Origin: Colwellia sp. | GTDB taxonomy: Bacteria > Pseudomonadota > Gammaproteobacteria > Enterobacterales > Alteromonadaceae | DNA: 64,000 nucleotides | NCBI GenBank assembly: GCA_002733765.1 | Contig: NVWU01000016.1 | Location: 40,592-104,591 of the forward strand | Reading direction: 5' to 3' | Shown: positions 8,736 through 48,007 of the stretch, in pieces | How positions within the stretch are numbered: the stretch's first letter is position 1 | How the letters are laid out: the number at the start of each line of letters is the position of its first letter | Notes under the pieces: model-generated | Told to the model about the DNA's origin: nothing | The model's input: only the letters and a program-made list of their open reading frames with translations | The model's database searches: none | Position numbers and translations under genes: made by a program

Positions 8736-10019
8736 TTGAAAACTCAATCGTCAGAAGACCTTCAATTAGAAGCGGCCTATAAATCGGTATCTGATACATA
8801 TCGCGGAACTGGAATTGATATCCACAAGGCTTGTAAAAAGCAACGCGAAGAAGGCGGACCTGTTTATGAAGGTGACTTTGTCACCCAATTTGGGGTTCCT
8901 ACAAACGCAGGGCTTCAGCAAGGTACACGCCCTACGTTTACCATCTTTGATTATAAAGATGTGATGTCTGTCATGCGTGACAATAAAACCTATACCAGTG
9001 GTTTTATCGCTGAAGGTTTGGGTGCATTCTTTGATGGCTTGATTATTCTTGCGATGGATGGTGAACAACATCGTCAAGTCAGATCTTTGTTGCAACCTGC
9101 GTTTATGCCAGAATCTATTAATAAGTGGCGCCCCGAAATTGAATTGGTCATGCGCCGTGATTTTCTAGAGCCGCTGGCGGCTAAGAAAAAAGCCGACATT
9201 ATGGAGTTCGGTTTATTCTTTCCTATTCGTGTGATGTATGCGTTGATGGGATTCCCAACAAATGATCCAGAGAAATATAAAAAATATGCGGCTTGGGCCT
9301 TGGCTATGGTTGGCGGTAATCAGATTGATCCAACTAAAATTGAAGAAGCACGTCGTCAGTCAGGCATTGCAGTAAAGGCACTTTATGATTCAATCCTTGA
9401 GGTTGTGCAGGAACGTAGAGCTTCAGATGAGTATAAAGATGACTTGATTGGACGTTTGATTACAGCCGAGTTTGAAGGTCATACTTTGGATGATCATGAG
9501 ATTGTTACTTTCGTTCGCTCTTTATTGCCGGCCGCTGGCGAAACCACGACGCGTACTTTGAGCTGTGTATTAACCATGTTATTTAATACTTCTGGTCTTT
9601 TAGATCGAGTACGTGATGATAGAGCACTTATTCCTAAGTTGATTGATGAAACTGTTCGCTATGAACCCATGGGGACTTTTAGAACGCGAGAAGCCTCTAA
9701 AGATACAGAGATTCAAGGTGTTAAAATCCCTAAAGGGTCTTTCGTTCAGTCTATGATTGTTTCGGCAAACAGAGACGAAACGGTTTTTGAAAACGGCCAT
9801 GAGTTCAATATTGATCGTAAAATGAAGCCCTCTTTTGGTTTCGGTTTTGGTGCACACATGTGTATTGGTCAGTTTGTTGCTAAGTTAGAAATGAACTGTG
9901 CTATTAATGCAATGTTTGATTTGTTACCTAACCTTCGCCTTGATCCTGATTATCCAGCGCCAGTTATTGAAGGTGCTCAGTTACGGGGTTGCTCTAGTAT
10001 TCATGTTTTGTGGGATTGA
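8736..10019 (+). CDS. Cytochrome P450
   Basis: Heme motif FGFGFGAHMCIGQ, I-helix LPAAGETTTR; likely TTG start at 8736 after AAGGAGAG rather than ORF start 8670. Confidence 0.93.
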   Translation: MKTQSSEDLQLEAAYKSVSDTYRGTGIDIHKACKKQREEGGPVYEGDFVTQFGVPTNAGLQQGTRPTFTIFDYKDVMSVMRDNKTYTSGFIAEGLGAFFDGLIILAMDGEQHRQVRSLLQPAFMPESINKWRPEIELVMRRDFLEPLAAKKKADIMEFGLFFPIRVMYALMGFPTNDPEKYKKYAAWALAMVGGNQIDPTKIEEARRQSGIAVKALYDSILEVVQERRASDEYKDDLIGRLITAEFEGHTLDDHEIVTFVRSLLPAAGETTTRTLSCVLTMLFNTSGLLDRVRDDRALIPKLIDETVRYEPMGTFRTREASKDTEIQGVKIPKGSFVQSMIVSANRDETVFENGHEFNIDRKMKPSFGFGFGAHMCIGQFVAKLEMNCAINAMFDLLPNLRLDPDYPAPVIEGAQLRGCSSIHVLWD

Positions 10020-13556: not shown

Positions 13557-14849
13557 GTGGTGAGTAATATGTCCAACAAGCACAATAACAATTTGGAAAA
13601 AGCGTTTGCCGATGTCGCCGATAACTATCGCGGGCAAGATGTCGACTTGAATGCTATTTATCGGGATATGCGTAAGAACACTCCGGTAATTGCCGAAGAT
13701 TTTATGAGTAAATTAGGGGTACCGAATATAGCCGGTCTTGATGCAGAACGCCCCACCTTTACGCTATTTAAATACAGCGATGTAATGGCAGTATTGCGTG
13801 ATGCGAAACGTTTCACTAGTGGTTTTATTGCCGAAGGCTTGGGTGCATTTTTTGATGGCCTTATTCTAACTGGTATGGATGGGGATGAGCATAAAAAAGC
13901 GCGTGCCTTATTGCAGCCTATTTTTATGCCTGATGTCGTTAATACTTGGCGTGATACTAAAATGGACCCGATTATTCGTAATGAATATCTGATCCCTATG
14001 CAGAAAGAGGGTAAAGCAGACTTGATGGAGTTTGCGCTCTACTTTCCGATTCGTTTGATCTATTCATTAATTGGTTTTCCAGAAGACGACCCAGAAAAAG
14101 TACAACAAGTCGCTGCTTGGTCTTTAGCGATTTTGGCAGGGCCTCAAGTAACGCCGGAAAAGGCCGAACAAGCGCGTAAGACGGCGATGGAAGCTGCGCA
14201 GTCTTTGTACGATGCAGTAAAAAAAGCGGTGGTTGAAGTGCGTAAAAATGGTGCAGAGGGAGGGGATTTGATTAGCCGTTTAATTCGTGCGGAGTATGAA
14301 GGACGCCAGCTAGATGACCATGAAATTACTACCTTTGTGCGTTCATTGCTACCTGCTGCTGGTGAAACTACAACACGTACATTTGGTTCCCTTATGACAC
14401 TTTTATTAGAAAGACCAGAGGTACTGGAGAGGGTCCGTGCTGACCGATCTTTAATCGGTAAAGCTATAGATGAGGCGGTGCGTTTAGAGCCTGTAGCAAC
14501 CTTTAAGGTGCGTCAAACTTCTGAAGACTTGGAAATAGGTGGTCTACAAATTCCAAAAGGAGCGATGGTGCAGTGCATTGTTGCATCTGCGAATCGTGAT
14601 GAAGATATATATGAAAACAGCGAAGAATACATTATTGACCGTAAAGTAAAGCCGTCGTTTGGCTTTGGCTTCGGCCCACACATGTGTATCGGCCAATTCA
14701 TTGCAAAAACGGAAATGATTGTGGCATTAAATGCCATTCTGGATCTTTTTCCAAATATCAGGCTGGACCCAGATATGCCAAAACCAGTAATTTCTGGTGC
14801 TCAATTACGTGGTCCGCATGAGGTTCATGTAGTTTGGGATCAAGTTTAA
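13557..14849 (+). CDS. Cytochrome P450 (paralogue of 8736-10019)
   Basis: FGFGFGPHMCIGQ, LPAAGETTTR; extensive identity with the first P450 (e.g. TSGFIAEGLGAFFDGLI); probable ATG at 13569. Confidence 0.93.
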   Translation: MVSNMSNKHNNNLEKAFADVADNYRGQDVDLNAIYRDMRKNTPVIAEDFMSKLGVPNIAGLDAERPTFTLFKYSDVMAVLRDAKRFTSGFIAEGLGAFFDGLILTGMDGDEHKKARALLQPIFMPDVVNTWRDTKMDPIIRNEYLIPMQKEGKADLMEFALYFPIRLIYSLIGFPEDDPEKVQQVAAWSLAILAGPQVTPEKAEQARKTAMEAAQSLYDAVKKAVVEVRKNGAEGGDLISRLIRAEYEGRQLDDHEITTFVRSLLPAAGETTTRTFGSLMTLLLERPEVLERVRADRSLIGKAIDEAVRLEPVATFKVRQTSEDLEIGGLQIPKGAMVQCIVASANRDEDIYENSEEYIIDRKVKPSFGFGFGPHMCIGQFIAKTEMIVALNAILDLFPNIRLDPDMPKPVISGAQLRGPHEVHVVWDQV

Positions 14850-15017: not shown

Positions 15018-16325
15018 ATGAAACTCGAAGATATGATTTTAGTCAGTGTTGACGACCATGCGATTGAACCACCTGGAGCGTTTACTCGCCATATGCCAGC
15101 TAAGTTCAAGGGGCGTGAACCTAAAGTAGAGAAACTCAATGGTCGCGATATTTGGATGTTTGAAGAGCAAGCTACCGGATATATGGGACTTAACTCTGTA
15201 GTAGGGCGTCCTAAATCAGAATATGGTATGGAGCCGCTAGGTTATGACCAAATGCGCCGTGGCACTTGGGATATTAAAGCCCGTGTTGAAGATATGGATG
15301 CTAACGGTGTTTTGGGTTCTTTGTGTTTTCCTACGTTCCCCGGTTTTGCCGGACAACGTTTTCAGGTAATGCCAGATAAAGCCGTGAGTCTAGCTGCTAT
15401 TCAGGCATACAATGATTGGCATTTACATGATTGGTGTAATGCTGCGCCGGGCCGTTTTATTCCATTAATGATGGTGCCTTGGTGGGACATGCAGGCAGCT
15501 GCGGCTGAAGTTAAGCGCATGGCTGATCAGGGCGTTCACGCGCTTACTTTATCAGATAACCCGACTGTACATGGTTATCCGTCTATCCATAACCCACATT
15601 GGGATCCATTATGGAAAGCCTGTGAAGATAATAATGTCGTAATTTGCTGCCATATTGGTACCGGTGTGAAGGCAGCACATGCCTCAGACGAATCGCCAAT
15701 TGATGCGTGGATTACGTCAATGCCTATTTCTATATCTAACTCTGCGGCTGACTGGATTTGGGCGCCGTTCTGGAAACGCCATCCTAAATTGCGTATGGCA
15801 TTGTCGGAAGGTGGAATTGGTTGGATTCCTTACCTGTTAGAACGCGCTGACTTTACGCATGGGCATCACAAAGAGTGGACTAACTCTAATTTTGGTAATA
15901 AAAAGCCAAGCGATATTTTTAATAAGCATATTATTACCTGCTTCATTGAAGATGAATTTGGTCTACATAACCTTGATTACATGAATGTGGACAAAGTGAC
16001 TTGGGAATGTGATTACCCGCACTCAGATTGCACATGGCCATATTCTGCTGATGTATTCTGGAAACAGTCGCAGCACCTTTCTGATGAAATTATCAATAAA
16101 GTGACTCATCTTAATGCTATGCGTGAATTTTCCTATGACCCTTTCGCTATTCTGGGTCGTGAAAATTGTACTGTAGGAGCACTAAAAGCTAAGGCAACCC
16201 ATGTCAGCATTGAACCAGCCTTAGGTTTAGGTGGCGCTGCTCCAGTCTCTGATGCTAAGAAACCAGTTACATCTGGTGATATTAATAAAATGTTTGAAGG
16301 TGCTGACGCGGGCACCGCACTTTAA
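15018..16325 (+). CDS. Amidohydrolase (ACMSD-like metal-dependent hydrolase/decarboxylase)
   Basis: VSVDDHAIEPPGAFTRHMP; VICCHIGTG; WECDYPHSDCTWP. Confidence 0.88.
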   Translation: MKLEDMILVSVDDHAIEPPGAFTRHMPAKFKGREPKVEKLNGRDIWMFEEQATGYMGLNSVVGRPKSEYGMEPLGYDQMRRGTWDIKARVEDMDANGVLGSLCFPTFPGFAGQRFQVMPDKAVSLAAIQAYNDWHLHDWCNAAPGRFIPLMMVPWWDMQAAAAEVKRMADQGVHALTLSDNPTVHGYPSIHNPHWDPLWKACEDNNVVICCHIGTGVKAAHASDESPIDAWITSMPISISNSAADWIWAPFWKRHPKLRMALSEGGIGWIPYLLERADFTHGHHKEWTNSNFGNKKPSDIFNKHIITCFIEDEFGLHNLDYMNVDKVTWECDYPHSDCTWPYSADVFWKQSQHLSDEIINKVTHLNAMREFSYDPFAILGRENCTVGALKAKATHVSIEPALGLGGAAPVSDAKKPVTSGDINKMFEGADAGTAL

Positions 16326-21659: not shown

Positions 21660-21772
21660 TATCTGTTTATTTAATACCTGTATGCACTTTTTGTGATTTT
21701 ACATTATTTGAATACTTTTGCATAATATGTTTAACTTATTTTGATGTGTTAGAATATAAACAGGAAATAAAA

Positions 21773-24700
21773 ATGGGCTCATTGGATCAACTTAGTCTTA
21801 AAAATGGTTTGCGCGACGTAAAGCTGGAAGATAAATATTCTCTCAGTAAAGGGCAGATATATGCCAGTGGTACGCAAGCATTAGTGCGACTGCCTTTAAT
21901 GCAGAAAGAGCGTGACCGACGAGCGGGTCTTAATACGGCAGGTTATGTGTCGGGTTATCGAGGCTCTCCTTTGGGTGGCGTAGATTTAGCGCTCTGGAGT
22001 GCAAAGAAACAGCTGGCTGAACATGAAATTACCTTTCAACCAGGTTTAAATGAAGATTTAGCTGCAACGGCCGTTTGGGGGACACAACAGGTTAATTTGC
22101 GTGATAATGCAAAATATGACGGTGTGTTTGGCATGTGGTATGGCAAAGGCCCTGGTGTTGATCGTTCGGCCGATGTGCTTAAACATGCCAACTCGGCAGG
22201 TACTTCAGTTAACGGTGGGGTGCTGTTGCTCGCCGGTGACGACCATGCTGCTAAATCATCTTCGGTGGCGCATCAGTCTGAGCATATTTTGATTGCGTGC
22301 GGTATCCCCGTCTTTTATCCCTCAAATGTTCAAGAGTATCTCGATTATGGTATGCATGGCTGGGCTATGAGCCGCTATTCTGGTCTTTGGGTTGGCATGA
22401 AATGTGTGACAGATATTGTTGAGTCTTCAGCATCTATAGACGTGGATCCTGATCGGTTGGAAATAGTGATACCTAAAGATTTTCCTATGCCCGAAGGTGG
22501 CTTAAATATACGCTGGCCAGATCCACCTTTGGATCAGGAAGCACGTATGTTGAACCATAAATGGTATGCTGCACTTGAATACATCCGCGCCAATAAAATA
22601 AATCGCATTATGCTTGATTCACCGAAAGCGCGTTTCGGCATTATGGCGGCTGGAAAAGCCTATTTAGACGTACGTCAGGCACTAACCGATCTTGGTTTGG
22701 ATGATGACACCTGTATTGAACTAGGCATTCGTATCTTAAAGGTTGGCTGTGTTTGGCCTTTGGAATCGCGTGATGCAAGGGAGTTTGCGACTGGTTTAGA
22801 AGAAATATTAGTAGTCGAAGAAAAACGCCAAATTCTTGAATACGCGCTGAAAGAAGAATTGTATAACTGGCGTGATGATGTGCGCCCAAGCATCTATGGT
22901 AAGTTTGATGAGCGAGATAACTCTGGGGGAGAATGGTCTCAACCACGAGGCCAATGGTTATTACCAGCACGCTATGAACTTTCACCCGCACTAATTTCAA
23001 AAGCGATTGCTACTCGCCTTGATCGCCTCGGATTACCACCGGAAATTCGTCAGCGGGTCATTAATCGGATAGCGATTATCGATGCAAAAGAACGTGAAGC
23101 TAATCAACCACGCTTAGCGGTTGAACGTAAACCTTGGTTCTGTTCTGGTTGTCCGCATAATATCTCAACTCGAGTGCCTGAAGGCTCTCGTGCGTTAGCT
23201 GGTATTGGTTGTCATTACATGGCCATGTGGATGGATCGTAACACGGAAACCTTTACGCAAATGGGCGGTGAGGGTGTAAGCTGGCTAGGACAAATGAATT
23301 TTTCGGGTGATAAACACGTGTTTGTCAATTTAGGGGATGGTACCTATTTCCATTCTGGGTTGTTGGCTATCAGGGCTGCAATAGCTGCCTCCGCTAATAT
23401 TACTTACAAGATTTTATTCAATGATGCCGTTGCCATGACCGGTGGTCAGCCTGTGGATGGAGTGCTCACAGTACCCAAAATATCTCATCAAGTGATAGCA
23501 GAAGGTGCAACTGAAGTATTAATTGTGAGTGATGAGCCGGAAAAGTATGATAGCCGTGCAGAACTGCCTGCTAATGTACAAGTTTATCATCGCGATGAAC
23601 TTGAAAAGCTGCAAATACGCCTACGTGATCAGACGGGTGTTTCTATTATTATTTATGATCAAACTTGCGCTACTGAAAAAAGGCGTCGTCGTAAACGCGG
23701 CTTAATGCCAGACCCAGCACGCCGTGCTTTTATTAATCCGGCTGTGTGTGAAGGTTGTGGCGATTGTACTAAGGCGTCGGGTTGTGTTTCGATCGAGCCA
23801 TTGGCAACTGATTTGGGTACTAAACGACAAATTAATCAAAATAGCTGTAACAAAGATTTTTCATGCTTAAAAGGCTTTTGTCCAAGCTTTGTGACTGCAG
23901 AAGGAGCGCAACTGCGAGCACCTGAAACTGATGATAATTCTGGCTTGCCTAACACCATACCTATGCCAACACTACCTACTTTAGACAAAACCTATGGTGT
24001 AGTGGTCGCGGGGATTGGGGGGACTGGGGTGGTAACAATTGGCGCTTTAATGGGTATGGCGGCGCATCTTGAAAGCAAAGGCGTGACGGTGCTCGATCAA
24101 ACTGGATTGGCACAAAAAGGCGGCGCGGTGATGAGTCATATCCAAATAGCGACCTCTCCTGAAAAAATTCATGCGACCCGTATTCCAACGGCGTCCGCCG
24201 TTGTATTAATTGGTTGTGACGAAATAGTAGCCGCTTCGAGTGATGTATTGTCAAAATTTCGTCAGGGTTTGTCTTACGCTGTGATCAACACGGCACAAAC
24301 GCCGGCGGCTGAGTTTTTAACTGATTCCAACTGGAAATTTCCGAAAGCCGTAGCGGAAAGTAATATCAATGATGCCTTCGGTATTCAATGTGACTACTTT
24401 GACGCAACAGCGCTTTCGTTGCGCACTATGGGTGACAGTATTTATGCTAATCCCTTGTTACTTGGATATGCTTGGCAGAAAGGCTGGATACCGCTGTCAC
24501 ATGACGCGTTAACTAAGGCAATAGAATTGAATGGTGTCACCATCAGCAAAAATTTAGAGGCATTTGAATGGGGCCGTGTAGCTGCTTTTGATAGCAGTTT
24601 ATTACCTCAAACTGATCCTGATAATCGCGTTGTTGTGGTAACAATGCCAGAAACACTTGATTCACTCATTGAAAAAGGAGTAGCTAAGCTAAGCGAATAT

Positions 24701-25321
24701 CAAAGTCCGGCGTATGCCAAGCGCTATCAGCAAGCACTTGAAAAAATTCGTGTCGTTGAAAAACAATTGAAACCCAGTGGCAGTCTTAAGCTAAGCAAAG
24801 CTATTGCGCGAAACCTCGCTAAGTTGATGACTTACAAAGATGAATATGAAGTGGCACGTTTACACTCTTCAGAAACCTTTAAAAATCAATTGCGTAAGCA
24901 GTTTGCAGGCGAGCCAGGCAAAGATTATAAACTTAATTTTCATATGGCACCGCCAATAATTTCAAAACGTGATGTACATGGCCATTTAGTTAAACGACGT
25001 TTTGGATCTTGGATGGGTGGGGCATTTCGTTTATTACGCCATTGTAAAATTTTGCGAAATACGTGGTTCGACCCTTTTGGTAAAACCCAAGAACGTCAAC
25101 AGGAACGTCAATTAATTGGGGACTACTTTGATTTAATTGATACTTTTTGTCAAAGCTTAACAGAAACCAATTTACTGGCGGCAATCGCCTTAGCAGAATT
25201 ACCTGACATGATCCGCGGTTATGGTCATGTTAAAGAGCAAAATATGGATTTAGCTGCGGCTAAAAAGGATGATCTAATGGCGCAATATGAAGGGCGTACA
25301 CTTGAGCGATTAGCCAAATAA
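21773..25321 (+). CDS. Indolepyruvate ferredoxin oxidoreductase-like fusion protein (IorAB-like)
   Basis: ThDP region WFCSGCPHNISTRVPEGS, MGGEGVSWLGQ, LGDGTYFHSG; Fe-S region CEGCGDCTKASGC; gamma domain GIGGTGVVTIGALMGMA; ATG 21773 after AGGAAA. Confidence 0.92.
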   Translation: MGSLDQLSLKNGLRDVKLEDKYSLSKGQIYASGTQALVRLPLMQKERDRRAGLNTAGYVSGYRGSPLGGVDLALWSAKKQLAEHEITFQPGLNEDLAATAVWGTQQVNLRDNAKYDGVFGMWYGKGPGVDRSADVLKHANSAGTSVNGGVLLLAGDDHAAKSSSVAHQSEHILIACGIPVFYPSNVQEYLDYGMHGWAMSRYSGLWVGMKCVTDIVESSASIDVDPDRLEIVIPKDFPMPEGGLNIRWPDPPLDQEARMLNHKWYAALEYIRANKINRIMLDSPKARFGIMAAGKAYLDVRQALTDLGLDDDTCIELGIRILKVGCVWPLESRDAREFATGLEEILVVEEKRQILEYALKEELYNWRDDVRPSIYGKFDERDNSGGEWSQPRGQWLLPARYELSPALISKAIATRLDRLGLPPEIRQRVINRIAIIDAKEREANQPRLAVERKPWFCSGCPHNISTRVPEGSRALAGIGCHYMAMWMDRNTETFTQMGGEGVSWLGQMNFSGDKHVFVNLGDGTYFHSGLLAIRAAIAASANITYKILFNDAVAMTGGQPVDGVLTVPKISHQVIAEGATEVLIVSDEPEKYDSRAELPANVQVYHRDELEKLQIRLRDQTGVSIIIYDQTCATEKRRRRKRGLMPDPARRAFINPAVCEGCGDCTKASGCVSIEPLATDLGTKRQINQNSCNKDFSCLKGFCPSFVTAEGAQLRAPETDDNSGLPNTIPMPTLPTLDKTYGVVVAGIGGTGVVTIGALMGMAAHLESKGVTVLDQTGLAQKGGAVMSHIQIATSPEKIHATRIPTASAVVLIGCDEIVAASSDVLSKFRQGLSYAVINTAQTPAAEFLTDSNWKFPKAVAESNINDAFGIQCDYFDATALSLRTMGDSIYANPLLLGYAWQKGWIPLSHDALTKAIELNGVTISKNLEAFEWGRVAAFDSSLLPQTDPDNRVVVVTMPETLDSLIEKGVAKLSEYQSPAYAKRYQQALEKIRVVEKQLKPSGSLKLSKAIARNLAKLMTYKDEYEVARLHSSETFKNQLRKQFAGEPGKDYKLNFHMAPPIISKRDVHGHLVKRRFGSWMGGAFRLLRHCKILRNTWFDPFGKTQERQQERQLIGDYFDLIDTFCQSLTETNLLAAIALAELPDMIRGYGHVKEQNMDLAAAKKDDLMAQYEGRTLERLAK

Positions 25322-29988: not shown

Positions 29989-30909
29989 TTATTCAGGTAA
30001 AAGTTCTTCTGGTGTTTTTACACTTGGACCCAGAATTGGTCCAACAATTTCATGTCCCCAAGTACTCATTTTTTCAGGATTAAGTTCATAAGGATCACCT
30101 TGCCATGGTTCTAATTCTGCAATAGTTTCAAAGGCAAAACCTGATGGATTAAAGTGGTAAAAAGACATATGTGGATCTTGGGTATGTTGACCTAAAGTCA
30201 TCATTAGCGGTAGTTCATGCTGTTTAACAATATCAAACGTTTCGCCAACGTCACGCACGGCGTCAACAAAAAGACCCACATGCTGAACACCCATTCGACC
30301 AGGAGCAAAGCCATAGGCAATGTCATGACTGGTTTGCGTGTTTAATTTAGAGCGGAAGAAGCCGGTTTTTCCTTTACCAGCCCCCCATCCATACCAATTG
30401 AAGCCCATTATTTCTAATAGAAAATGCTCAAGTTCTGGACCAAACTCGGGAGTGATCAGGACGACATGACCAACTCCTCTGTCATCACAAATAAAACCAC
30501 CATGAGGGCGTCCTGCAATGAATGAACGCGGTGTCCATTTTTGCGCATAAAAGAGTTCATGCTGGTAACCCGCAGGATCAAGAAAACGAATCAGTTCTTT
30601 TACACCGCGCTGTTCGCAGAGAGCCTCATCGCCAACTGTGATTTCTATATCATATTGTTTAAAGCGTTCACAAGCGGCAATAAAGTCGACGCGATTACGC
30701 GCTTCCCAGCCAATATAAGCAATACGATCGATTTTTCCAGGATGAATGGTAATTCGGTTGCGGCGGTCGTCCAATTTGAAATATATTGATTCTGGGTCAG
30801 TTTCGGGAGAGTCGGCAATCTGAAACCCCATAATTTCTGGACCGTATGAACGCCATTCATCTAGTTTAGTAGTTTCAAAACCGAGGTAGCCTATGCCTAT
30901 AATATTCAC
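29989..30909 (-). CDS. VOC-family extradiol ring-cleavage dioxygenase (BphC/type I-like)
   Basis: IGYLGFETTKLDEWRSYGPEIMGF, GVGHVVLITPEFGPELEHFLLEIMGF, MGVQHVGLFVDAV, GFAFETIAE. Confidence 0.88.
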   Translation of the reverse strand: MNIIGIGYLGFETTKLDEWRSYGPEIMGFQIADSPETDPESIYFKLDDRRNRITIHPGKIDRIAYIGWEARNRVDFIAACERFKQYDIEITVGDEALCEQRGVKELIRFLDPAGYQHELFYAQKWTPRSFIAGRPHGGFICDDRGVGHVVLITPEFGPELEHFLLEIMGFNWYGWGAGKGKTGFFRSKLNTQTSHDIAYGFAPGRMGVQHVGLFVDAVRDVGETFDIVKQHELPLMMTLGQHTQDPHMSFYHFNPSGFAFETIAELEPWQGDPYELNPEKMSTWGHEIVGPILGPSVKTPEELLPE

Positions 30910-30989: not shown

Positions 30990-31745
30990 TTAGGTTGCTA
31001 ACATGCCGCCATCAATGAGTATGTCTGACCCGGTGATAAAAGCACCGTTCTCTGATGCCACAAACAATGCCATAGCAGCTATTTCCTCCGGTTCACCCGG
31101 ACGATTAAGTAGTACTTTTTCTAAAATTGCTTTACGCATAATCGGGTCTTCAATAAACGCCGCAGTACCAGGTGTTTTTATAAAACCAGGGCTAATGCTA
31201 ACAGCACGGATACCTGAGATGGCACCTTCAACGGCGAGTTGACGAGTGAAGGAAACAATTGCACCTTTAGTGGCACAGTGAGCTGAAATTCCGGCTTTGC
31301 GGGAACCTCCCCAAGCTGCTGTTGAAGCAATATTGATAATTACACCACCATTTACGCTGAGGTATTGCCACGCAAAACGGGTTGTATAAAAAACCTGATC
31401 AAGCTCATTGCGAATAGTATAGTGCCAGTCTTCAACTGAGAATTCGCCGATAGGTCCAAACTTGGCTGCAGAGGCATTATTATACAAAATATCAATGCGA
31501 CCATGTTCCTTTACTGCAGTATTTACCCACGTTTCGACCTCAGTTGGATTACCTAGGTCAACGACTGTCGTTCCATACAGCGTCAGTCCTTCCTTTGCCA
31601 AAAGGTCGATCGAACATTGCTGTTCATCACTGTTAATATCACAACCTACTACGATGGCTCCGGCTCTTGCAAACATCAATGCGGCGGCTCTTCCCTGACC
31701 ACCACCTGTTCCTGTTATTAACGCGATTTTTCCTGCAAGTTGCAT
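30990..31745 (-). CDS. Short-chain dehydrogenase/reductase
   Basis: IALITGTGGGQGRAAALMFARAGA, NNASAA, CATKGAIVS; internal Met (MQLAGK) preferred over ORF start 31772. Confidence 0.9.
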   Translation of the reverse strand: MQLAGKIALITGTGGGQGRAAALMFARAGAIVVGCDINSDEQQCSIDLLAKEGLTLYGTTVVDLGNPTEVETWVNTAVKEHGRIDILYNNASAAKFGPIGEFSVEDWHYTIRNELDQVFYTTRFAWQYLSVNGGVIINIASTAAWGGSRKAGISAHCATKGAIVSFTRQLAVEGAISGIRAVSISPGFIKTPGTAAFIEDPIMRKAILEKVLLNRPGEPEEIAAMALFVASENGAFITGSDILIDGGMLAT

Positions 31746-31841
31746 GATATTAAGCTCCAGGTTGTTTAACATATATTTTTGTTGTGTTTAATAACACCTA
31801 AAATACTTGTCTTTTGCTTTTTAGAAAAGTAATACAAATAT

Positions 31842-32063
31842 TTACTCTACAATCACAATAACTTCAGCAGGGCAGGCTTCAGCCCCCTCAGTTGCCGCTT
31901 CAAGTAGCTCGTCGGAAATTTGATCTGATTCAAGATAGATAATGCCATCACTATCTAGCTTGTAGACTTCTGGGCATAAAGCCGCGCATAATCCATAGCC
32001 ACAGCATTTAGTGCTGTCAACTTCTACGCGATGTGTTTTAGATGGTGATATTTCGCTGGACAT
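31842..32063 (-). CDS. 3Fe-4S/4Fe-4S-type ferredoxin
   Basis: 73 aa; VEVDSTKCCGYGLCAALCPEVYKLDSDGI...EACPAEVI. Confidence 0.9.
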   Translation of the reverse strand: MSSEISPSKTHRVEVDSTKCCGYGLCAALCPEVYKLDSDGIIYLESDQISDELLEAATEGAEACPAEVIVIVE

Positions 32064-32175: not shown

Positions 32176-32991
32176 TTATTGAGAAAAAAATAGGTCAGAA
32201 AGTTTTTGGGCAAGTTTATTAAGCTCAAGGCCTATGAAGGCATAATGCTTTTCTGAATAGGAGCCACGAAACGTTACCGCTGAGACACTAAGGATCATTT
32301 TGTCCTCTGAATCAAGAACCGGTGCGGCAACTGAAGTTATACCTTGCGAAAAATAACCATCGTCGATCGCCCAGCCTCGTGCACAGATTTGTTGTATTTC
32401 CTGTTTATACTGCGTAAAATTGAGCTTCCTTGCCCAGCGTATTTTTTCAAAAGCACTGCGCAGTTCTGTTTCTTCAGTTTGATCGTAATAGGAAAATAAA
32501 CGGCCGCTGGCTCCCATTAAATGTGGCAAGCGTTGTCCAGCAGCCATATCAATACGAATGGCGCCAGGATTACTTTCAGTGCAGATTAATATAATTCTAT
32601 CGTTGCCTAGTTTTTTCCATATGGTGATAGTTACATTTAACGTTGCAGCCGCTTTTTGCAGCATAGGACGCGCGGCCTCCATGCTACTAAATGTGCTTTT
32701 AGGAACTAGATATTGCAGTAATAATTCTAGCTCGCTACCAACTTGGTAAGTCTTTGACTCAGAATCAAACGAAAGAAAACCGTCCAACGTCATTGTACGA
32801 AGAATGTTAAAGCAGGTACTTGGGTTTATTTCCAATACTCGGCTAATGTAGCTTGCACGCATGGGGGTTTTATTTTCGGCTAACATTCGCACGATTCTAA
32901 AGCAATAGACAACCGGTTTGACAATAACGATGCCTTTGTCTGCTGCAGCAAGTGCAGCAGATGCTTGAATGTTCATATTACCTGAAGTCAT
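32176..32991 (-). CDS. IclR family transcriptional regulator
   Basis: N-terminal wHTH MLAENKTPMRASYISRVLEINPSTCFNILRTMTLDGFLSFD; effector domain follows. Confidence 0.9.
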   Translation of the reverse strand: MTSGNMNIQASAALAAADKGIVIVKPVVYCFRIVRMLAENKTPMRASYISRVLEINPSTCFNILRTMTLDGFLSFDSESKTYQVGSELELLLQYLVPKSTFSSMEAARPMLQKAAATLNVTITIWKKLGNDRIILICTESNPGAIRIDMAAGQRLPHLMGASGRLFSYYDQTEETELRSAFEKIRWARKLNFTQYKQEIQQICARGWAIDDGYFSQGITSVAAPVLDSEDKMILSVSAVTFRGSYSEKHYAFIGLELNKLAQKLSDLFFSQ

Positions 32992-33205: not shown

Positions 33206-34405
33206 TTAAATATCCCTGCTTAGTAACAGGCAGCCCGCTAAAGGTCCACCTCCGGCTGCAGCGATCGATACTTGATGATCTTTTACCTGGCGAGCGCCGG
33301 CTCGGCCCCATAATTGAGTGCAAGCTTCATGTACATACCCCAGACCATGAGTACGCCCCGCTGATAATTGCCCTCCATTTGTATTAATAGGAATAATGCC
33401 ATCGCGGGCAATACGCTGTCCTCCTTCAATAAATGCCCCACCTTCACCTAAACTACAAAAACCTAGCGACTCCATCCAAATTAGTGTCAGAATCGAAAAG
33501 CCATCATAGAGTTGAGCTGTACCGACATCTGAAGGTTTAAGGTCAGTACCTTGCCACATCATATTTGCAGCATCAATAGTTGCCATACCTGTTAAGTTTA
33601 TTTGATCCCAAGACCAAGATTGATGCAATGCGGCTCCCATAGACTCTATGTGAATGGGTTTATTAGGCATATCTTTAGCGATGTCTGCACGGGAAAGGAT
33701 TATGACCGTAGATGCATCGCAGTGAACGTCACAATCCAAAAGGCGTAAAGGCGTTGAAATATAGCGGGAAGCTAAATAATCGTCCAATGTCATTGGTTTA
33801 TTGTTGAAAACTGCATTTGGGTTCAATTGTGCGTTATTGCGACATGTAACCGGAATTTGTCCAAGTTGTTCGCTAGTGGTACCAAATTCGTGAAAGTGGC
33901 GTTGGGCATACATTGCCATTAAATTAATACCAGACAAAACATTAAAAGGGGTATACCACTGCCAAGAGAAGCTACTATCCCGACCAACGGTTTTATTGGT
34001 GAGTGCGCTGGATGTTTTATCTGTTTGCCGCTTAGATGCCTCGGTAATGGTTCTAAAAACAAGTACGTGTTTACATAAACCAGAGTCGATGGCCATTGCG
34101 CCATTAATAATTCCTGCTAGTGGTCCTGGGCCTTCGTAACCACCTCCATACCAGTTTACTTTAAGCCCTAAAGCAGAGATAAGTGCACTTGGGCCAACGG
34201 GTGAAAAGGCGTCACCATTATTATTATCGCCAGGCCAACATGCTATTCCATCGATATCGTCACGGCTTAGGCCAGCGTCATTAAGTGCTTGCTTACAAGC
34301 ATCGATGGTAAGCTGCATTGCTGTTTTAGCTGAAGGCCGTCCAACTTCAGACTGGCCTACACCCGTGATCGCGACAGATTTAGCTGCATTTTTTTTATTA
34401 AACAT
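33206..34405 (-). CDS. Thiolase-superfamily lipid-transfer/SCP-x-like protein (possible retro-aldolase)
   Basis: AITGVGQSEVGRPSAKTAMQLTIDACKQALNDAGLSRDDIDGIACWPG; C-terminal NTNGGQLSAGRTHGLGYVHEA, GGGPLAGCLLL. Confidence 0.85.
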   Translation of the reverse strand: MFNKKNAAKSVAITGVGQSEVGRPSAKTAMQLTIDACKQALNDAGLSRDDIDGIACWPGDNNNGDAFSPVGPSALISALGLKVNWYGGGYEGPGPLAGIINGAMAIDSGLCKHVLVFRTITEASKRQTDKTSSALTNKTVGRDSSFSWQWYTPFNVLSGINLMAMYAQRHFHEFGTTSEQLGQIPVTCRNNAQLNPNAVFNNKPMTLDDYLASRYISTPLRLLDCDVHCDASTVIILSRADIAKDMPNKPIHIESMGAALHQSWSWDQINLTGMATIDAANMMWQGTDLKPSDVGTAQLYDGFSILTLIWMESLGFCSLGEGGAFIEGGQRIARDGIIPINTNGGQLSAGRTHGLGYVHEACTQLWGRAGARQVKDHQVSIAAAGGGPLAGCLLLSRDI

Positions 34406-34407
34406 GG

Positions 34408-34806
34408 TTATGCTTCTTTTTTGAATAGCGGGAGCCAGATATCATCAATTTCTTCGAAAATAACGCTAACGGGCATACCAATAAAAACTTCATCTGGGTT
34501 GATTTCAACAATGTTGCTGACAAAGCGGAGTCCTTTTTGATCTGTAAGTTCAATAATGGCAACAATGTAGGGAACTTCTAGATCGGGCTGCCACTTTTGA
34601 TGGTTGATAGTAAAACTTGCAACCGTGCCTTTGCCTGATGTTTTTTTAGGCATTACATCTTCGCTCAGGCAGTGAAAGCAAACGGGGGCTGGAGGATGAA
34701 AATATTGCTGACAACTAGCACAATGATGAATCATTAAATTGTTGAATGCTCCTTGTTGCCAAAATGTTGCATTGTCCTTATTAAGCAAGGGTAACTTTCT
34801 TATCAT
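34408..34806 (-). CDS. Zn-ribbon/OB-fold protein (DUF35)
   Basis: HHCASCQQYFHPPAPVCFHCLSEDV; immediately upstream of the thiolase-like gene. Confidence 0.88.
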   Translation of the reverse strand: MIRKLPLLNKDNATFWQQGAFNNLMIHHCASCQQYFHPPAPVCFHCLSEDVMPKKTSGKGTVASFTINHQKWQPDLEVPYIVAIIELTDQKGLRFVSNIVEINPDEVFIGMPVSVIFEEIDDIWLPLFKKEA

Positions 34807-34931: not shown

Positions 34932-35018
34932 GTTAGGTATTTTATTTTACGTCAATACAAAAATAAAACGCAGTATGACCTTAAAGTAACATTAAATGTA
35001 TAAATATAGGAGTTGGTG

Positions 35019-35723
35019 ATGTCTGAATTCAGGCTAAAAGGTAAGCATTATGTAGTAACTGGAGCCCTCGGTTCATTGGGTTATTCATTATCACTTAGGC
35101 TCGTCGATGCTGGTGCAAGGGTTACGATGGTGGATCTTGCTGAAAGTATCGAAGGCCGTGAGCCCCCAAAAGGCAGTTTATTATTGGGCGGGGTAGACTT
35201 GACTAATGAAGAGGCTGTTGAAAAAACATTTAAAGTTTCAAAAGCAAAACTTGGAACAATAGATGGTTTGATAAATATAGCTGGTGGTTTTTCATGGGAG
35301 CCGATTAAAGGTGGTACTTTAGCCACTTGGGATCGTATGTATCAAATGAATTTACGCAGTGCTGTTGTAGCTTGTTCAGTAGTACTACCCTATCTATCAA
35401 AAAGTAATAATGGCGCTATTGTAAACATTGGCGCGGCGGCGGCACAAAAAGCGGCTTTAGGTATGGGGGCTTATACAGCATCGAAATCAGGTGTTGCCCG
35501 TTTGACTGAATCACTAGCGGAAGAACTAAAACTTGAAAAGGTAAGAGTTAATGCTGTGTTACCCAGTATTATCGATACCGCTGCAAATCGGGTTAATATG
35601 CCAGATGAGGACTTTTCACGGTGGGTCAAAGTAGAAGAGTTATGTGCGGTGATTGAATTTTTACTTTCTGATGCGGCATCTGCCGTAACTGGCGCATGTG
35701 TGCCTGTGATAGGGAAAGTTTAA
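35019..35723 (+). CDS. Short-chain dehydrogenase/reductase
   Basis: MSEFRLKGKHYVVTGALGSLGYSLSLRLVDAGA; INIAGG; YTASKSGV; RBS AGGAGTTGG upstream. Confidence 0.88.
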   Translation: MSEFRLKGKHYVVTGALGSLGYSLSLRLVDAGARVTMVDLAESIEGREPPKGSLLLGGVDLTNEEAVEKTFKVSKAKLGTIDGLINIAGGFSWEPIKGGTLATWDRMYQMNLRSAVVACSVVLPYLSKSNNGAIVNIGAAAAQKAALGMGAYTASKSGVARLTESLAEELKLEKVRVNAVLPSIIDTAANRVNMPDEDFSRWVKVEELCAVIEFLLSDAASAVTGACVPVIGKV

Positions 35724-35800: not shown

Positions 35801-36805
35801 GTGATAATAATGAGACTGGTAACGTATCGGGATCACAATGGTAATCAGCGCGCAGGCGCATTTATCGAAGGTGATCAATTAATTGTTGATTTGGCCATCG
35901 CGTATAACAGTCAGCATAATCAGTCCCATTCAGCTTTTAATAGTATTCTTGCTTTAGTCGAAGCGGGTAATAGTGCATGGGATATGGCTAAATTATTGAT
36001 TAAAAAGGCACCTGTTGAGGCTGTGATTCAACGTTCGGTAGTTAAAGTGTTAGCGCCAATTCAACCACCTCCCCAAATGCGTGATTGTTCATGTTTTGAA
36101 TTACATATTCAGCAGTGTTTTGCCGCTTCACGAAAAGCTCGAGTAGCCAAGGAACCTGATCCAGAAACAGCCCTTAAATTACTTGATACGAGTATTGATG
36201 ACAATATGCTCAAAACCTTTCGGCGCCAACCTATATATTATAAATGTAATCGATTTGCGGTGGTTGGTCCGGATGAAGATGTTGTATGGCCTGCTTACAG
36301 TAAATTGTTGGATTTTGAGCTAGAGCTTGCCTGTTATATTGGTAAAAAAGTACGCGATCTTTCTCGTGAAAAGGCTAAAGATGCCATTTTTGGTTTCACC
36401 ATTTTTAACGATATTAGCGCCCGAGACACACAAGCACGTGAGATGCCAGGTTATCTTGGTCCAGCCAAAAGTAAAGATTTCGATACCGGTAACGTGATGG
36501 GACCATGTCTCGTTACCGCAGATGAAATTGAAGACCCCTATGATTTGAAAATGACAGCCCGTGTAAACGGTGTGGAATGGGGTAGCGGAACAACACGAGA
36601 TATGTTCTGGAAATTTGAAGATGTGATTGCACATATCTCTCAAGGTGAAACTCTTTATCCTGGCGAAGTGTTGGGTTCAGGTACAGTAGGGAATGGCTGC
36701 GGGTTAGAGCAGTCACGCTTCTTGAAGCCCGGTGATCATATCGAACTGGAAATTGAACAAATAGGAAAATTGGTTTCACGGATTGTTAAACCGGAAATTA
36801 AATGA
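35801..36805 (+). CDS. Fumarylacetoacetate hydrolase (FAH) family protein
   Basis: FELELACYIGKKVRDLSREKAKDAIFGFTIFNDISARDTQ; KSKDFDTGNVMGPCLVT; actual start may be 35810. Confidence 0.9.
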   Translation: MIIMRLVTYRDHNGNQRAGAFIEGDQLIVDLAIAYNSQHNQSHSAFNSILALVEAGNSAWDMAKLLIKKAPVEAVIQRSVVKVLAPIQPPPQMRDCSCFELHIQQCFAASRKARVAKEPDPETALKLLDTSIDDNMLKTFRRQPIYYKCNRFAVVGPDEDVVWPAYSKLLDFELELACYIGKKVRDLSREKAKDAIFGFTIFNDISARDTQAREMPGYLGPAKSKDFDTGNVMGPCLVTADEIEDPYDLKMTARVNGVEWGSGTTRDMFWKFEDVIAHISQGETLYPGEVLGSGTVGNGCGLEQSRFLKPGDHIELEIEQIGKLVSRIVKPEIK

Positions 36806-36988: not shown

Positions 36989-38374
36989 ATGTCTAGAAAC
37001 AAAAACGAACTAGCCGATGGGACGAATATTGCCGATCTGGTTAGGATTGATACTCGGGAAGTGCAAATGCGTACCCTAGAGGATCGCGAAATTTATGAGT
37101 TGGAACAAGAGCGCTTGTTTGGTAAAACCTGGCTCATGTTGGGTCATGAAAGCGAAATACCAAACTCTAATGATTTTGTGCTTCGTTATATGGGTGACGA
37201 CTCGGTTATAGTTACCCGAACTAAAGATGGTGAAGTTCACGTAAGCCTAAATGTATGTCCACACCGTGGCATGAAAATATGCACAACAGAAGCCGGTAAC
37301 TCGCCGGTACATACTTGTATTTATCATGGCTGGGCATTTCGTTCTAATGGCGACTTTTTAGGGTCTCCGATTGAAAAAGAATGCATGCATGGCAAAATTA
37401 TGGAGAAAGAAGAACTTGGTTTACGAAAAGCTAGAGTGACGCTTTACGGCGGTCTTATTTTTGCTACTTGGAATCTTGAAGGTGAGTCATTTGATGAGTT
37501 TTTGGGTGATGCAAAGTGGTATTACGATCTGATGTTTTGCCGCAGTGATGCTGGTATGGAAGTGGCAGGGCCACCGCAGCGCTTTATTGTAAGAGCTAAC
37601 TGGAAAACAGCAGGTGAGCAGTCTGCTGCAGATGGTTTTCACACGCTTATGCTACATCGTTGGTTAGGTGAAGTGGGCAATTACAAAAAAGAAGGTGCGG
37701 GCAGTGACTTAGCTGAAGAGATGTACGGTGCTGAAGTGAGTTCACCGCACGGTCATGCTCTGCGTTGTATTGATTTAGCTCGTAAAATACGTCGTCTAAC
37801 GGGTAAAGAGCCATCTGAACTGAGTTTAGAGGAAAAGCTACGAATTTTACCACCACCAGGTATGACAGCCGAAACGGTAGATCAGTTAAAAAACAACCTG
37901 ACTGATGACCAAATGGAAGTGCTTGCGTGGATGCCGCCACAGGTAGGCGGTATGTTTCCAAATATTGTTTTTGCGTTTATTTATATCCCTCAGCCAGACG
38001 GTACGGTGATTGGGTCGATGGCGCTGCACACCTATGTTCCAAAGGGCCCAGATAAACTTGAGTTTATGAATTGGGTACTGGTAGAAAAAGATACGCCACC
38101 TGAGTTAAAAGAACAAATGGTGAAGCAAACCCTTAACTTGCTAGGTACCTCTGGCATGGTGGAACAGGACGATTCAGATACTTGGCCACAGATGACCATA
38201 TCTGCTAAAGGTCCTCAGGGTAGTAAAAGCACGATGAAATATCAGGCAATTTATGAAACAAGCAAGCCTAAAGGTTGGCCTGGACCGGGTATTGTAAACG
38301 AAGGTTTCACTAAAGATGATACACAGTGGCATTGGTGGCTTTACTGGTTGGAATTGATGACCGCTGAAAAATAA
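36989..38374 (+). CDS. Aromatic ring-hydroxylating dioxygenase, alpha subunit
   Basis: Rieske CPHRGMKICTTEAGNSPVHTCIYHGW and iron site DGFHTLMLH. Confidence 0.95.
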   Translation: MSRNKNELADGTNIADLVRIDTREVQMRTLEDREIYELEQERLFGKTWLMLGHESEIPNSNDFVLRYMGDDSVIVTRTKDGEVHVSLNVCPHRGMKICTTEAGNSPVHTCIYHGWAFRSNGDFLGSPIEKECMHGKIMEKEELGLRKARVTLYGGLIFATWNLEGESFDEFLGDAKWYYDLMFCRSDAGMEVAGPPQRFIVRANWKTAGEQSAADGFHTLMLHRWLGEVGNYKKEGAGSDLAEEMYGAEVSSPHGHALRCIDLARKIRRLTGKEPSELSLEEKLRILPPPGMTAETVDQLKNNLTDDQMEVLAWMPPQVGGMFPNIVFAFIYIPQPDGTVIGSMALHTYVPKGPDKLEFMNWVLVEKDTPPELKEQMVKQTLNLLGTSGMVEQDDSDTWPQMTISAKGPQGSKSTMKYQAIYETSKPKGWPGPGIVNEGFTKDDTQWHWWLYWLELMTAEK

Positions 38375-38414: not shown

Positions 38415-38972
38415 ATGACTCATGATGTAGAACAAAGCGTAATGGATGCAATGAGAGCCCCTGTGGCCATCGGTTCAGAGCGTTATAATACTATTTTGAC
38501 CTTTCTCTATCACGAAGCCAGTTTACTGGATAACCTGAAAATATCAGAATGGGGTAATATCCTCGCGACTGATCTGTTGTACAACATTCCAATTAGGCAT
38601 ACGCGTTCGTCTCGAGATAACGCTATGTCGGTTGTGCGTACTTGTCAACATATGCTTGATGACTATCGCTCGATGCTTGGCCGTATTATGCGTTTGGAGG
38701 GCAACAGTGCTTGGGCTGAAGATCCTCCATCACGTGTTCGTCGCTTTATTACTAATGTACTTGTCTATGAAACAGATAAAGCTGATGAGTTTCTGGTGGT
38801 CAGTAATATGTTAGTCACACGTAACCGTTTTGATGACGATCAGTATGATCTTATTAGCGGTGTGCGCACTGATATTTTACGGCTTGATGAAGCGAGTTAT
38901 AAGTTGGCTCGACGTGAAATTATTCTTGATCAGGCTGTCTTAGGTACTCCTAACTTGGGTATTTTCCTCTAA
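38415..38972 (+). CDS. Aromatic ring-hydroxylating dioxygenase, beta subunit
   Basis: 185 aa SnoaL-like fold; FLYHEASLLDNLKISEW, RVRRFITNVLV; directly after alpha subunit. Confidence 0.92.
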   Translation: MTHDVEQSVMDAMRAPVAIGSERYNTILTFLYHEASLLDNLKISEWGNILATDLLYNIPIRHTRSSRDNAMSVVRTCQHMLDDYRSMLGRIMRLEGNSAWAEDPPSRVRRFITNVLVYETDKADEFLVVSNMLVTRNRFDDDQYDLISGVRTDILRLDEASYKLARREIILDQAVLGTPNLGIFL

Positions 38973-43950: not shown

Positions 43951-45036
43951 ATGCTGATCGACCTCCATGCCCATGCTCCACATCCAGACTATTACGACCA
44001 ACATCCATACTGGGGTCCTGCTTTTGAGCTCCAGAGCGATGGTGATATTAAGTTACGCGTAGGGGATTATATTCTCAAACTAGGTGCACCCGAGCGTAAA
44101 GCGGCACTGCGTGCAGCACATGCTCGTGGTGAAACTCTAGATGTTGCCGAATATATGGCAAAGTGGAAAGACCCTAAAACTCGCTTAGCAGGAATGGATG
44201 CAGCGGGCCAAAATGCACAGGTTATCTCTGTTCCTAGCCATTGCTATATGTATTGGGCAGAAGCTGAGTTTGGTATTCCATTTGCGCAAAAAGCAAATGA
44301 CGTACTGGCTGAGTATTGTTCTGCAGCACCAGACAGATTGATGTTCTGGGCGCACGCTCCTTTAAATGAACCAGTTGAAGCCGCTAAAGAAATTCGTCGT
44401 GCGTGTAAAGAGTTAGGTGCTAAAGGGTTGGTAGCGGGTGGTTCAAACTTTGGTGGTTTAGAGTTTGATTCCCCTGAAATGGACCCAGTGTGGGAAGCAT
44501 TGTGCGAAGTTGATTTACCGATGTTTGTGCACGGTTATAACCAGTCAGCTACTTGGGGTGAAAATGCCAGTACGGATCGTTATGAAACGACTGCCATTGT
44601 AGGGATGAATTACGACGAGACTAAATGTTTCTGGTATTTAATTAACGGTGGTGTATTTGACCGTTTCCCAAATCTTAAAGTGTATATTACTCATGGTGGT
44701 GGTTTTGTTCCATATCAACTAGGGCGTATGGCACAAACTAACCCGAATCTTGATACATATCACAATAAAAAGCCATTCCTAGACTACATGAAAAACTTCT
44801 ATTTTGATGTTGAATTGCATGAGGTGCCCATGCGTCAAGCGATGGTTGAAGTCATTGGTGCTGACCGCGTTTTGTACGGTTCAAACTTTGGTGGCAGTGA
44901 TGCAGTCCGCCATGATTTGACAGATGACTTGAAACTGTCAGATGACGATTTACAAAAAATTCGCTGGAAAAATGCGTGTGAGTTACTTCATTTAGATCCA
45001 GAGAAAATCGGTAAAATCGGTTCTGGAAGCAAATAA
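43951..45036 (+). CDS. Amidohydrolase (ACMSD-like)
   Basis: MLIDLHAHAPHPDYYDQHP; FVHGYNQ; YITHGGGFVPYQ; VLYGSNFGGSD. Confidence 0.9.
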   Translation: MLIDLHAHAPHPDYYDQHPYWGPAFELQSDGDIKLRVGDYILKLGAPERKAALRAAHARGETLDVAEYMAKWKDPKTRLAGMDAAGQNAQVISVPSHCYMYWAEAEFGIPFAQKANDVLAEYCSAAPDRLMFWAHAPLNEPVEAAKEIRRACKELGAKGLVAGGSNFGGLEFDSPEMDPVWEALCEVDLPMFVHGYNQSATWGENASTDRYETTAIVGMNYDETKCFWYLINGGVFDRFPNLKVYITHGGGFVPYQLGRMAQTNPNLDTYHNKKPFLDYMKNFYFDVELHEVPMRQAMVEVIGADRVLYGSNFGGSDAVRHDLTDDLKLSDDDLQKIRWKNACELLHLDPEKIGKIGSGSK

Positions 45037-45926: not shown

Positions 45927-46832
45927 ATGGTCTCCACAGAAAATAAGGTAGTAGTTGTCGGTGCTGGTTTAATGGGTACAGGTATTGCTCATGCATTTGC
46001 CAGTAGTGGTTTTGTGATTGATTTAGTTGATAACAGTGAGTCGGCCTTAGAAAAAGCACGATTGTCGATAGAGTCTATTATTGATGTCGGCGTTGAGTTG
46101 GGCAAAATGTCAGCATCTAATGCTGCCAAAGCCAAACAAAACCTTTCTGTTTCAACGAATTTAAAACAGTCTGCGCAGAATGCCTCACTTTTAGTTGAAA
46201 CGGTGTCTGAAAACCTAGCAGTAAAACAAGCTGTTATTCGTGATGCGATAGCCGTCATGGCTGAAAACGCCGTAATTGCAACAAATACCTCAGCTTTAAG
46301 TGTGACGGAAATTGCAACCGCAGCCTTAGCACCTGAAAATGTTATTGGCATGCACTTCTTCAACCCAGTACACAAAATGAAGTTAGTTGAACTAGTACTT
46401 GGCATTGCCACTAGTGAAGCAACTGTCGCAACTGCCCGTGAATGGTGTGATGCATTAGGCAAAACTTCCATTTTAGTAAATGAAACACCGGGTCTGACCA
46501 CAAGCAGAATGTCGGCAATGCTGGGTAATGAAGCAATGTGGATGTTACAAGAAGGTACCGCTTGTGCGGAAGATATAGATACCGCGCTGCGTATGGGATT
46601 TAACCATCCAATGGGACCTCTAGAATTGGGCGATATGACTGGTTGGGATACTCGTCTTGCAGTCTTACGTTATTTGCACTCAACACTAGGTGAAAAATTT
46701 CGTCCTTGTCCACTGATTATAAAAATGGTTGCAGCAGGGCGTTACGGTCGTAAAACCAGCCACGGTGTTTATCAATACGATGAAAAAGGTCAGCAAATAC
46801 CCGGTTCAGGTTTAAAAGGCAGTGCATTGTGA
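45927..46832 (+). CDS. 3-hydroxyacyl-CoA dehydrogenase
   Basis: VVVVGAGLMGTGIAHAFASSGF; VIGMHFFNPVHKMKLVELV; MGPLELGDMTG. Confidence 0.95.
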   Translation: MVSTENKVVVVGAGLMGTGIAHAFASSGFVIDLVDNSESALEKARLSIESIIDVGVELGKMSASNAAKAKQNLSVSTNLKQSAQNASLLVETVSENLAVKQAVIRDAIAVMAENAVIATNTSALSVTEIATAALAPENVIGMHFFNPVHKMKLVELVLGIATSEATVATAREWCDALGKTSILVNETPGLTTSRMSAMLGNEAMWMLQEGTACAEDIDTALRMGFNHPMGPLELGDMTGWDTRLAVLRYLHSTLGEKFRPCPLIIKMVAAGRYGRKTSHGVYQYDEKGQQIPGSGLKGSAL

Positions 46833-48007
46833 AAACAGTTTATATCGTAGAGGCTGTGCGTACTCCTGTAGGTCGCTACCGAGGTAGCTTGGCGAGTGTA
46901 CGTGCAGATCACCTCGGCGCGCTTGTATTGAATGCTGTCATTGATAGGGCTGGTATTAAGGCTGAAGAAGTTGATGATGTAGTTTTTGGCTGTGTCACGC
47001 AAGTGGGTGAGCAGTCAGCGAATATAGCCCGCACAGCACTGTTGAGTGCTGGATGGCCAGTCTCAATTCCCGGTCTGACTTTAGATAGGAAGTGTGGTTC
47101 AGGTGAAGTCGCTGTGCATGTAGCAGTGGGTTTGATTTCCTCAGGAGCAATTGATGTTGCGGTTGCTGGTGGTGCAGAGAACATGAGTCGAGTGCGCATG
47201 GGTGGTAATCGTGAGATTTACGGCGAAACATTTGGCTGGATGGCGTCTCAGAATTATGAATTGACCAGTCAGGGTGAAGCAGCAGAGCGTGTAGCCGATG
47301 AGTGGTCGTTGAGTCGTGCTGATTTAGATCAATTTGCTGTTGAGAGTCACCGGCGTGCTGTTGCTGCTTCAGAAGCCGGTTTGTTTGCATCTGAAATTGT
47401 TGCAGTCGACGTGCCAGCATTGGCTGAAAAAAATTGGACAGAGCCATTGCCCGCTACTTTCTCTATTGATGAAACCATACGTCCAGGTACTCATGCAGAT
47501 AAACTAGCAACGCTTAAAAGTAGTTTTCGTGAGCAGGGTAAATTAACTGCAGGTAATTCTTCGCAAATTTCTGATGGCGCGGCTGTTTTATTATTAATGT
47601 CGGCTGAAGCCGTTGAGCGTTTGGGGCTTAAACCTAAAGCTAAAATTGTGAGTTTTGCCACGGTGGGTTCCGATCCCACATTGATGCTAACGGGTCCAAT
47701 TGCAGCTACCCGTAAAGTGTTAAAAAAAGCAAAATTGACCTTATCCGATATTGATATTTTTGAAGTGAATGAAGCTTTTTCTCCAGTTCCAATGATGTGG
47801 ATGAAAGAGCTAGGAGTTGAGCATACCCGTTTAAATGTTAACGGCGGAGCCATTGCATTAGGCCATCCTCTGGGGGCCAGTGGAGCTCGTATTATGACTT
47901 CTATGGTGCATGAGCTTGAGCGCCGAGGAGGGCGTTACGCTTTGCAGTCAATATGTTGTGCTGGTGGTATGGGCACCGCGACATTAATTGAACGAATTGA
48001 TAATTAA
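46829..48007 (+). CDS. Acetyl-CoA acyltransferase (thiolase)
   Basis: TVYIVEAVRTPVGRYRGSLASVRADHLGALV; LDRKCGSGEVAVHVA; NVNGGAIALGHPLGASGAR; GTG start overlapping upstream TGA. Confidence 0.94.
   Translation: MKTVYIVEAVRTPVGRYRGSLASVRADHLGALVLNAVIDRAGIKAEEVDDVVFGCVTQVGEQSANIARTALLSAGWPVSIPGLTLDRKCGSGEVAVHVAVGLISSGAIDVAVAGGAENMSRVRMGGNREIYGETFGWMASQNYELTSQGEAAERVADEWSLSRADLDQFAVESHRRAVAASEAGLFASEIVAVDVPALAEKNWTEPLPATFSIDETIRPGTHADKLATLKSSFREQGKLTAGNSSQISDGAAVLLLMSAEAVERLGLKPKAKIVSFATVGSDPTLMLTGPIAATRKVLKKAKLTLSDIDIFEVNEAFSPVPMMWMKELGVEHTRLNVNGGAIALGHPLGASGARIMTSMVHELERRGGRYALQSICCAGGMGTATLIERIDN

Follow-up and report, generated by a model that had tools for sequence, protein, structure and literature searches.

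A cysteine-less thiolase-fold protein, DitF, and its DUF35 partner in a Colwellia resin-acid gene cluster: a predicted non-thiolytic acyl-CoA C-C lyase

Thiolase-fold proteins with DUF35 partners and the dit genes

Ltp2-ChsH2(DUF35) (6OK1), the steroid C3 side-chain aldolase of actinobacteria, and Sal-Shy(DUF35) (9MYR), the bile-acid C5 side-chain aldolase of proteobacteria, each pair a thiolase-fold subunit with a DUF35 subunit that is fused to a MaoC hydratase. In TcLtp2 the tyrosine of the YDxF motif is the base and Tyr344 is the acid, in CtSal these roles belong to Tyr302 and Cys304, and the position of the thiolase nucleophile is a glycine in CtSal, with an equivalent glycine described for TcLtp2 (PMC12329534). 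The same fold is found in SCP2-type thiolases and in the DUF35-thiolases 6ESQ, BbsAB and PhlBC, which also have a DUF35 subunit; 6ESQ and the SCP2 thiolases carry the nucleophilic Cys and the His and Cys of HDCF. Another solved relative, 4U4E, is an uncharacterised 'thiolase' of Sphaerobacter thermophilus, Cys-less and with YDxF in the form YDSF.

The dit genes are involved in the degradation of abietane resin acids. Paraburkholderia xenovorans LB400 owes its growth on abietic and dehydroabietic acids to a Dit island on its megaplasmid of 1.47 Mb (PMC6210171). Only a minority of dit genes have been characterised in function; mutants with an insertion in ditF no longer grow on dehydroabietic, abietic or palustric acid (PMC13063091). 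The label given to DitF in the literature is 'sterol carrier-like protein' (PMC13063091, PMC12628601).

The gene pair and its resin-acid neighbourhood

We analysed a stretch of 64,000 nucleotides from Colwellia sp., hereafter the window, for which a Cys-lacking thiolase-like protein coupled to a DUF35 Zn-ribbon protein had been described from the sequence alone. Both open reading frames are as described: they lie on the minus strand, DUF35 first, with a gap of 2 bp. The features considered here are the following.

16 to 1647, plus strand: acyl-CoA ligase, which may activate the carboxyl of resin acids
8670 to 10019, plus strand: cytochrome P450 a, candidate hydroxylase
13557 to 14849, plus strand: cytochrome P450 b, candidate hydroxylase
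29989 to 30909, minus strand: ditC, extradiol ring-cleavage dioxygenase
30990 to 31772, minus strand: ditB, SDR dehydrogenase
31842 to 32063, minus strand: ditA3, single-cluster 4Fe-4S ferredoxin
32176 to 32991, minus strand: ditR, IclR-type regulator
33206 to 34405, minus strand: ditF, thiolase-fold protein without catalytic Cys (YDGF/R351 type), 399 aa, predicted acyl-CoA retro-aldolase
34408 to 34806, minus strand: stand-alone DUF35 protein, C4 zinc ribbon plus OB fold, 132 aa, predicted obligate partner subunit of DitF
35013 to 35723, plus strand: ditG, SDR, divergent from the DUF35-ditF pair
35801 to 36805, plus strand: ditH, FAA-hydrolase family
36989 to 38374, plus strand: ditA1, Rieske dioxygenase alpha subunit
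38415 to 38972, plus strand: ditA2, dioxygenase beta subunit
46829 to 48007, plus strand: ditO-like thiolase with the ordinary Cys, an internal control for the Cys that DitF lacks

The 132-aa protein belongs to the DUF35/ChsH2 C-terminal family, with a rubredoxin-like zinc ribbon and an OB fold; PF01796 (OB_ChsH2_C, 6e-16) and PF12172 (zf-ChsH2, 1.5e-07) both score above the Pfam cut-off. Three of its zinc ligands (C29, C32, C43) are invariant and the fourth (C46) nearly so, a C4 site as in ChsH2, where the ribbon is likewise followed by HPP, and unlike the C3H1 site of Shy. Being a stand-alone protein, it has no MaoC domain. The only Pfam domain of the 399-aa DitF is thiolase C-terminal-like.

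The pair is flanked on one side by ditG, ditH, ditA1, ditA2 and an MFS permease gene, and on the other by ditR, ditA3, ditB and ditC. DitF is 71% identical to the protein encoded on chromosome 3 (the megaplasmid) of LB400 and 71-74% identical to those of Pseudomonadaceae. Nine regions from other genomes were used for comparison, seven from Pseudomonadaceae, whose DitF is about 72% identical, and two (L158 and L159) with relatives of about 50% identity outside dit clusters. The core order ditA2-ditA1-ditH-ditG-DUF35-ditF is common to the seven Pseudomonadaceae regions and the LB400 locus, and the former also carry ditR, an FAA hydrolase gene, ditC, ditB and ditA3. After DUF35, the most constant neighbours of ditF among 71 close loci are ditH (60) and ditG (54). 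By sequence and gene order, the cluster is thus identified as a dit (abietane resin-acid) cluster and the gene as ditF, the same gene as in Pseudomonas abietaniphila and LB400; the name rests on LB400 and the published dit gene set (PMC12628601) rather than on the BKME-9 sequence. The window departs from known dit clusters in two respects: adjacent ditE/ditD are absent from the interval between ditR and ditC, and the ferredoxin gene has moved beside ditR. A steroid side-chain cluster was considered and rejected: the Colwellia genome has one PF01796 match and one other DitF relative, a canonical SCP2-type thiolase with NCSSGS, HDCF and GHPIGATG that provides a further internal control, and the neighbours of the pair are dit genes.

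No DitF orthologue was found in the 30 genus- and order-level relatives searched (best match 34%), yet orthologues are present in Massilia, Zoogloea, Aromatoleum and Pseudomonas, a distribution that marks the cluster as horizontally spread.

Several other features of these loci were noted. An ORF resembling an IS110-family transposase (3904-4929) lies in the left part of the cluster and fits the reported mobility of dit islands. The catabolic cluster also encodes a 1191-aa indolepyruvate-ferredoxin-oxidoreductase-like protein (21746-25321), accompanied by EtfBA genes and kept in other dit loci. A cluster on a Massilia putida plasmid shares synteny with the window along about 33 kb but has no ditA1A2 between the FAA hydrolase and MFS genes, and the same genes are missing from that place in other Massilia loci. 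Two Amidohydro_2 proteins are encoded at 15018-16325 and 43951-45036; relatives of the first adjoin dit-less YDGF-type genes in 4 of 14 loci, hinting at a common step.

Active site, partnership and kinship of DitF

The active site was compared in an alignment of 85 members of the YDGF clade, with identities down to about 47%, and the solved relatives. The original prediction had singled out a segment, GLKVNWYGGGYEGPGPLAGI, which lacks a cysteine where thiolases carry their nucleophile and where the paralogue at 46829-48007 has one. The segment is present in the product of 33206-34405, and the nucleophile column corresponds to G92 of DitF; across the clade it is occupied by G (64), A (14), S (4), T (2) and N (1) and never by C. 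A Cys does stand there in the window thiolase and in two solved thiolases, 7YVY and 6ESQ, and the observation is confirmed. The His/Asn column of thiolases (HDCF, NEAF) is Tyr300 in 85/85.

The remaining catalytic columns are equally constant. Gly302 stands in all 85 where SCP2 thiolases have Cys, Sal has Cys304 and Ltp2 has His296, giving YDGF in place of YDHF (Ltp2), YDCY (Sal) and HDCF (SCP2 thiolase). Arg351 replaces, again in 85/85, the GHP His of thiolases, Tyr344 of Ltp2, Gln352 of Sal and the His of 4U4E. D301 and H353 are invariant too, the latter being the xHG His that follows the Tyr344 position in Ltp2, and so is Glu91, adjoining the lost Cys, where Ltp2 has Gly and Sal and the solved DUF35-type thiolases have Gly or Ala. 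The C-terminal CxG site of thiolases reads AAGGGPLAG, without Cys. None of the four features of an SCP2-type or classical thiolase (nucleophilic Cys, HDCF/NEAF, GHP His, CxG Cys) is therefore present in DitF, and with both catalytic Cys gone the usual covalent thiolysis is impossible for it. As judged from the alignment, DitF retains the base Tyr of the aldolases, lacks the nucleophile and lacks either known acid, and its clade has an invariant, so far undescribed signature unlike those of Ltp2, Sal or thiolases.

Thiolysis through a Cys relocated elsewhere is extremely improbable: Cys 225, 317 and 362 are conserved in the clade, but none aligns with a catalytic position, Cys225 is shared with TcLtp2 and Cys317 with TcLtp2 and CtSal, both aldolases, and Cys362 lies within a helix (DSSP on the model).

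Partnership with DUF35 was counted in 84 loci whose DitF is at least 45% identical. In all 84 a DUF35 gene lies directly upstream on the same strand, mostly with a 1-19 bp overlap or a gap of a few bp. Natural fusions occur in Streptomyces sp. NBC_00080 and Rhodococcus sp. BH4, each a single polypeptide that begins with DUF35 and has YDGF and LSAGR(L/T)HG intact; a third candidate (L094) has ambiguous bases in the locus and was not counted as a clean fusion. A signature invariant in 85 sequences, together with this constant partnership, shows that the pattern is not due to chance.

Among solved structures, the two chains of 6OK1 come closest to DitF and its DUF35 partner, by sequence (DitF to chain A, 2.4e-54; DUF35 to chain B, 1.3e-26) and by fold. 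The AlphaFold models, whose input held no plasmid rows, have pLDDT values of 88.9 (DitF) and 94.0 (DUF35), and their best matches are chain A (TM 0.86/0.89) and chain B (TM 0.84/0.85). In sequence, 6OK1 is followed for DitF by 4U4E, which belongs to another clade (TM 0.81/0.90), and then by CtSal 9MYR. In both trees computed the YDGF rows, DitF orthologues and more distant relatives alike, form one clade with support 100/100 and a long stem; the second tree places it, weakly (89/76), as sister to Ltp2, and in the first it branches among its neighbours without a resolved sister. The AU tests left two other placements standing, the clade joined to Sal (p 0.07) and the clade joined to the thiolases (p 0.15). 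DitF is thus neither Ltp2 nor Sal, but a separate class closest to them. The earlier comparison with the Ltp2/ChsH2-DUF35 architecture survives as far as the thiolase fold, the loss of Cys, the DUF35 partner and the nearest solved relative of both chains are concerned; it fails in the separate clade, in the replacement of His296 and Tyr344 by Gly and Arg and in the missing MaoC domain.

Predicted reaction and its alternatives

Taken together, the sequence, the fold match, the synteny, the conservation and the clade suggest that DitF and DUF35 form a non-thiolytic acyl-CoA C-C lyase of the abietane pathway, probably a retro-aldolase acting on a beta-hydroxyacyl-CoA; the chemistry, the acid and the substrate are inferred. 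Retro-aldol cleavage agrees best with the combination of a thiolase fold that lacks the catalytic Cys, a base Tyr that never varies in the clade, and a DUF35 partner. This part of the original prediction, retro-aldol rather than thiolysis, is retained as the leading predicted reading, and the steroid pathway is dropped because the neighbours are dit genes. Two features count against a retro-aldolase: the known general acids and the oxyanion His296 of Ltp2 are replaced, which on the alignment calls for new residues or a different chemistry, and this DUF35, unlike ChsH2 and Shy, has no fused hydratase.

In the proposed mechanism, DitF and DUF35 would form a heterotetramer in which DUF35 shapes and stabilises the cleft. 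Tyr300 of YDGF would pull the proton from the beta-hydroxyl of the substrate, and breakage of the C-C bond would leave an acyl-CoA enolate together with a ketone or aldehyde. The candidates for stabilising and protonating the enolate are R351, H353 and/or E91, which would act in place of Tyr344/His296 of Ltp2 and Cys304 of Sal.

The carboxyl of resin acids sits on the quaternary C4, and acyl-CoA dehydrogenation and beta-oxidation are consequently blocked at this carbon. A speculative substrate would be a 5-hydroxy resin acid in the form of its C18-CoA ester, or a compound from a later stage of degradation, and retro-aldol cleavage between C4 and C5 would open ring A. The acyl-CoA ligase and the two P450s of the window were counted in favour of the explanation as a whole. 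Resin acids of this 5-hydroxy type have been reported from P. abietaniphila, by authors who do not link them to DitF (PMC13063091). They accumulate late and may be shunt products rather than the substrate of DitF. A possible but doubtful proposal is that DUF35-dependent thiolase-fold aldolases include a third active-site class (Tyr/Gly/Arg/His), with DitF as its first member, and that DitF opens ring A of a 5-hydroxy acyl-CoA at C4-C5, in a hydroxylase-primed bypass of the blocked beta-oxidation. Genes for CoA ligases, CoA transferases and acyl-CoA dehydrogenases, and sometimes for aldehyde dehydrogenases, surround the dit-less relatives of about 50% identity; a P450 gene is near only 4 of 22, and P450 adjacency was set aside as a weak general support for P450-made beta-hydroxyls.

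The partial retention of the catalytic residues of both aldolases also leaves room for another enolate reaction of a Cys-less thiolase fold, for instance the loss of CO2 from an acyl-CoA of the beta-keto or malonyl type. TbSLP, with YDCF, gives weak malonyl-CoA decarboxylation, but this activity is absent in CtSal (PMC12329534), and the nearest relatives of both subunits, in fold and sequence, are aldolases; we consider decarboxylation unlikely. The constancy of ditG and ditH beside the pair would suit a non-covalent retro-Claisen cleavage of a 1,3-diketone-type acyl-CoA, attacked directly by water or CoA and coupled to the SDR DitG and the FAA-hydrolase DitH. This is distinctly unlikely, the base Tyr typical of aldolases being invariant in the clade, and we know of no thiolase-fold enzyme that performs such a cleavage without Cys. 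A non-catalytic carrier or scaffold, in keeping with the historical label and with the partial loss of the catalytic residues of known relatives, is highly unlikely: the Pfam scan found no SCP2 lipid-binding domain in DitF, its active-site columns (Y300, D301, G302, R351, H353, E91) are invariant rather than relaxed, and growth stops on loss of ditF (PMC13063091).

As a DUF35-dependent C-C lyase, DitF would bring a concrete, assayable reaction to an incompletely mapped resin-acid pathway, beyond the attack on ring C, and 'sterol carrier-like' would be a misleading label for a gene that growth on resin acids depends on. A family across Pseudomonadota, Actinomycetota and Myxococcota, usually annotated as 'thiolase family protein', is defined by the YDGF/Arg signature, and there would be at least three different sets of residues with which the thiolase fold has turned to chemistry without Cys.

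Among thiolase-like relatives of the same class there are more uncharacterised DUF35-linked Cys-less variants, with YDAF, YDSF, YDNF, YDDY and YDCF. A natural series of such active sites occurs on a single Myxococcota contig, where members with HDCF (Cys thiolase), YDGF and YDAF share a span of about 17 kb.
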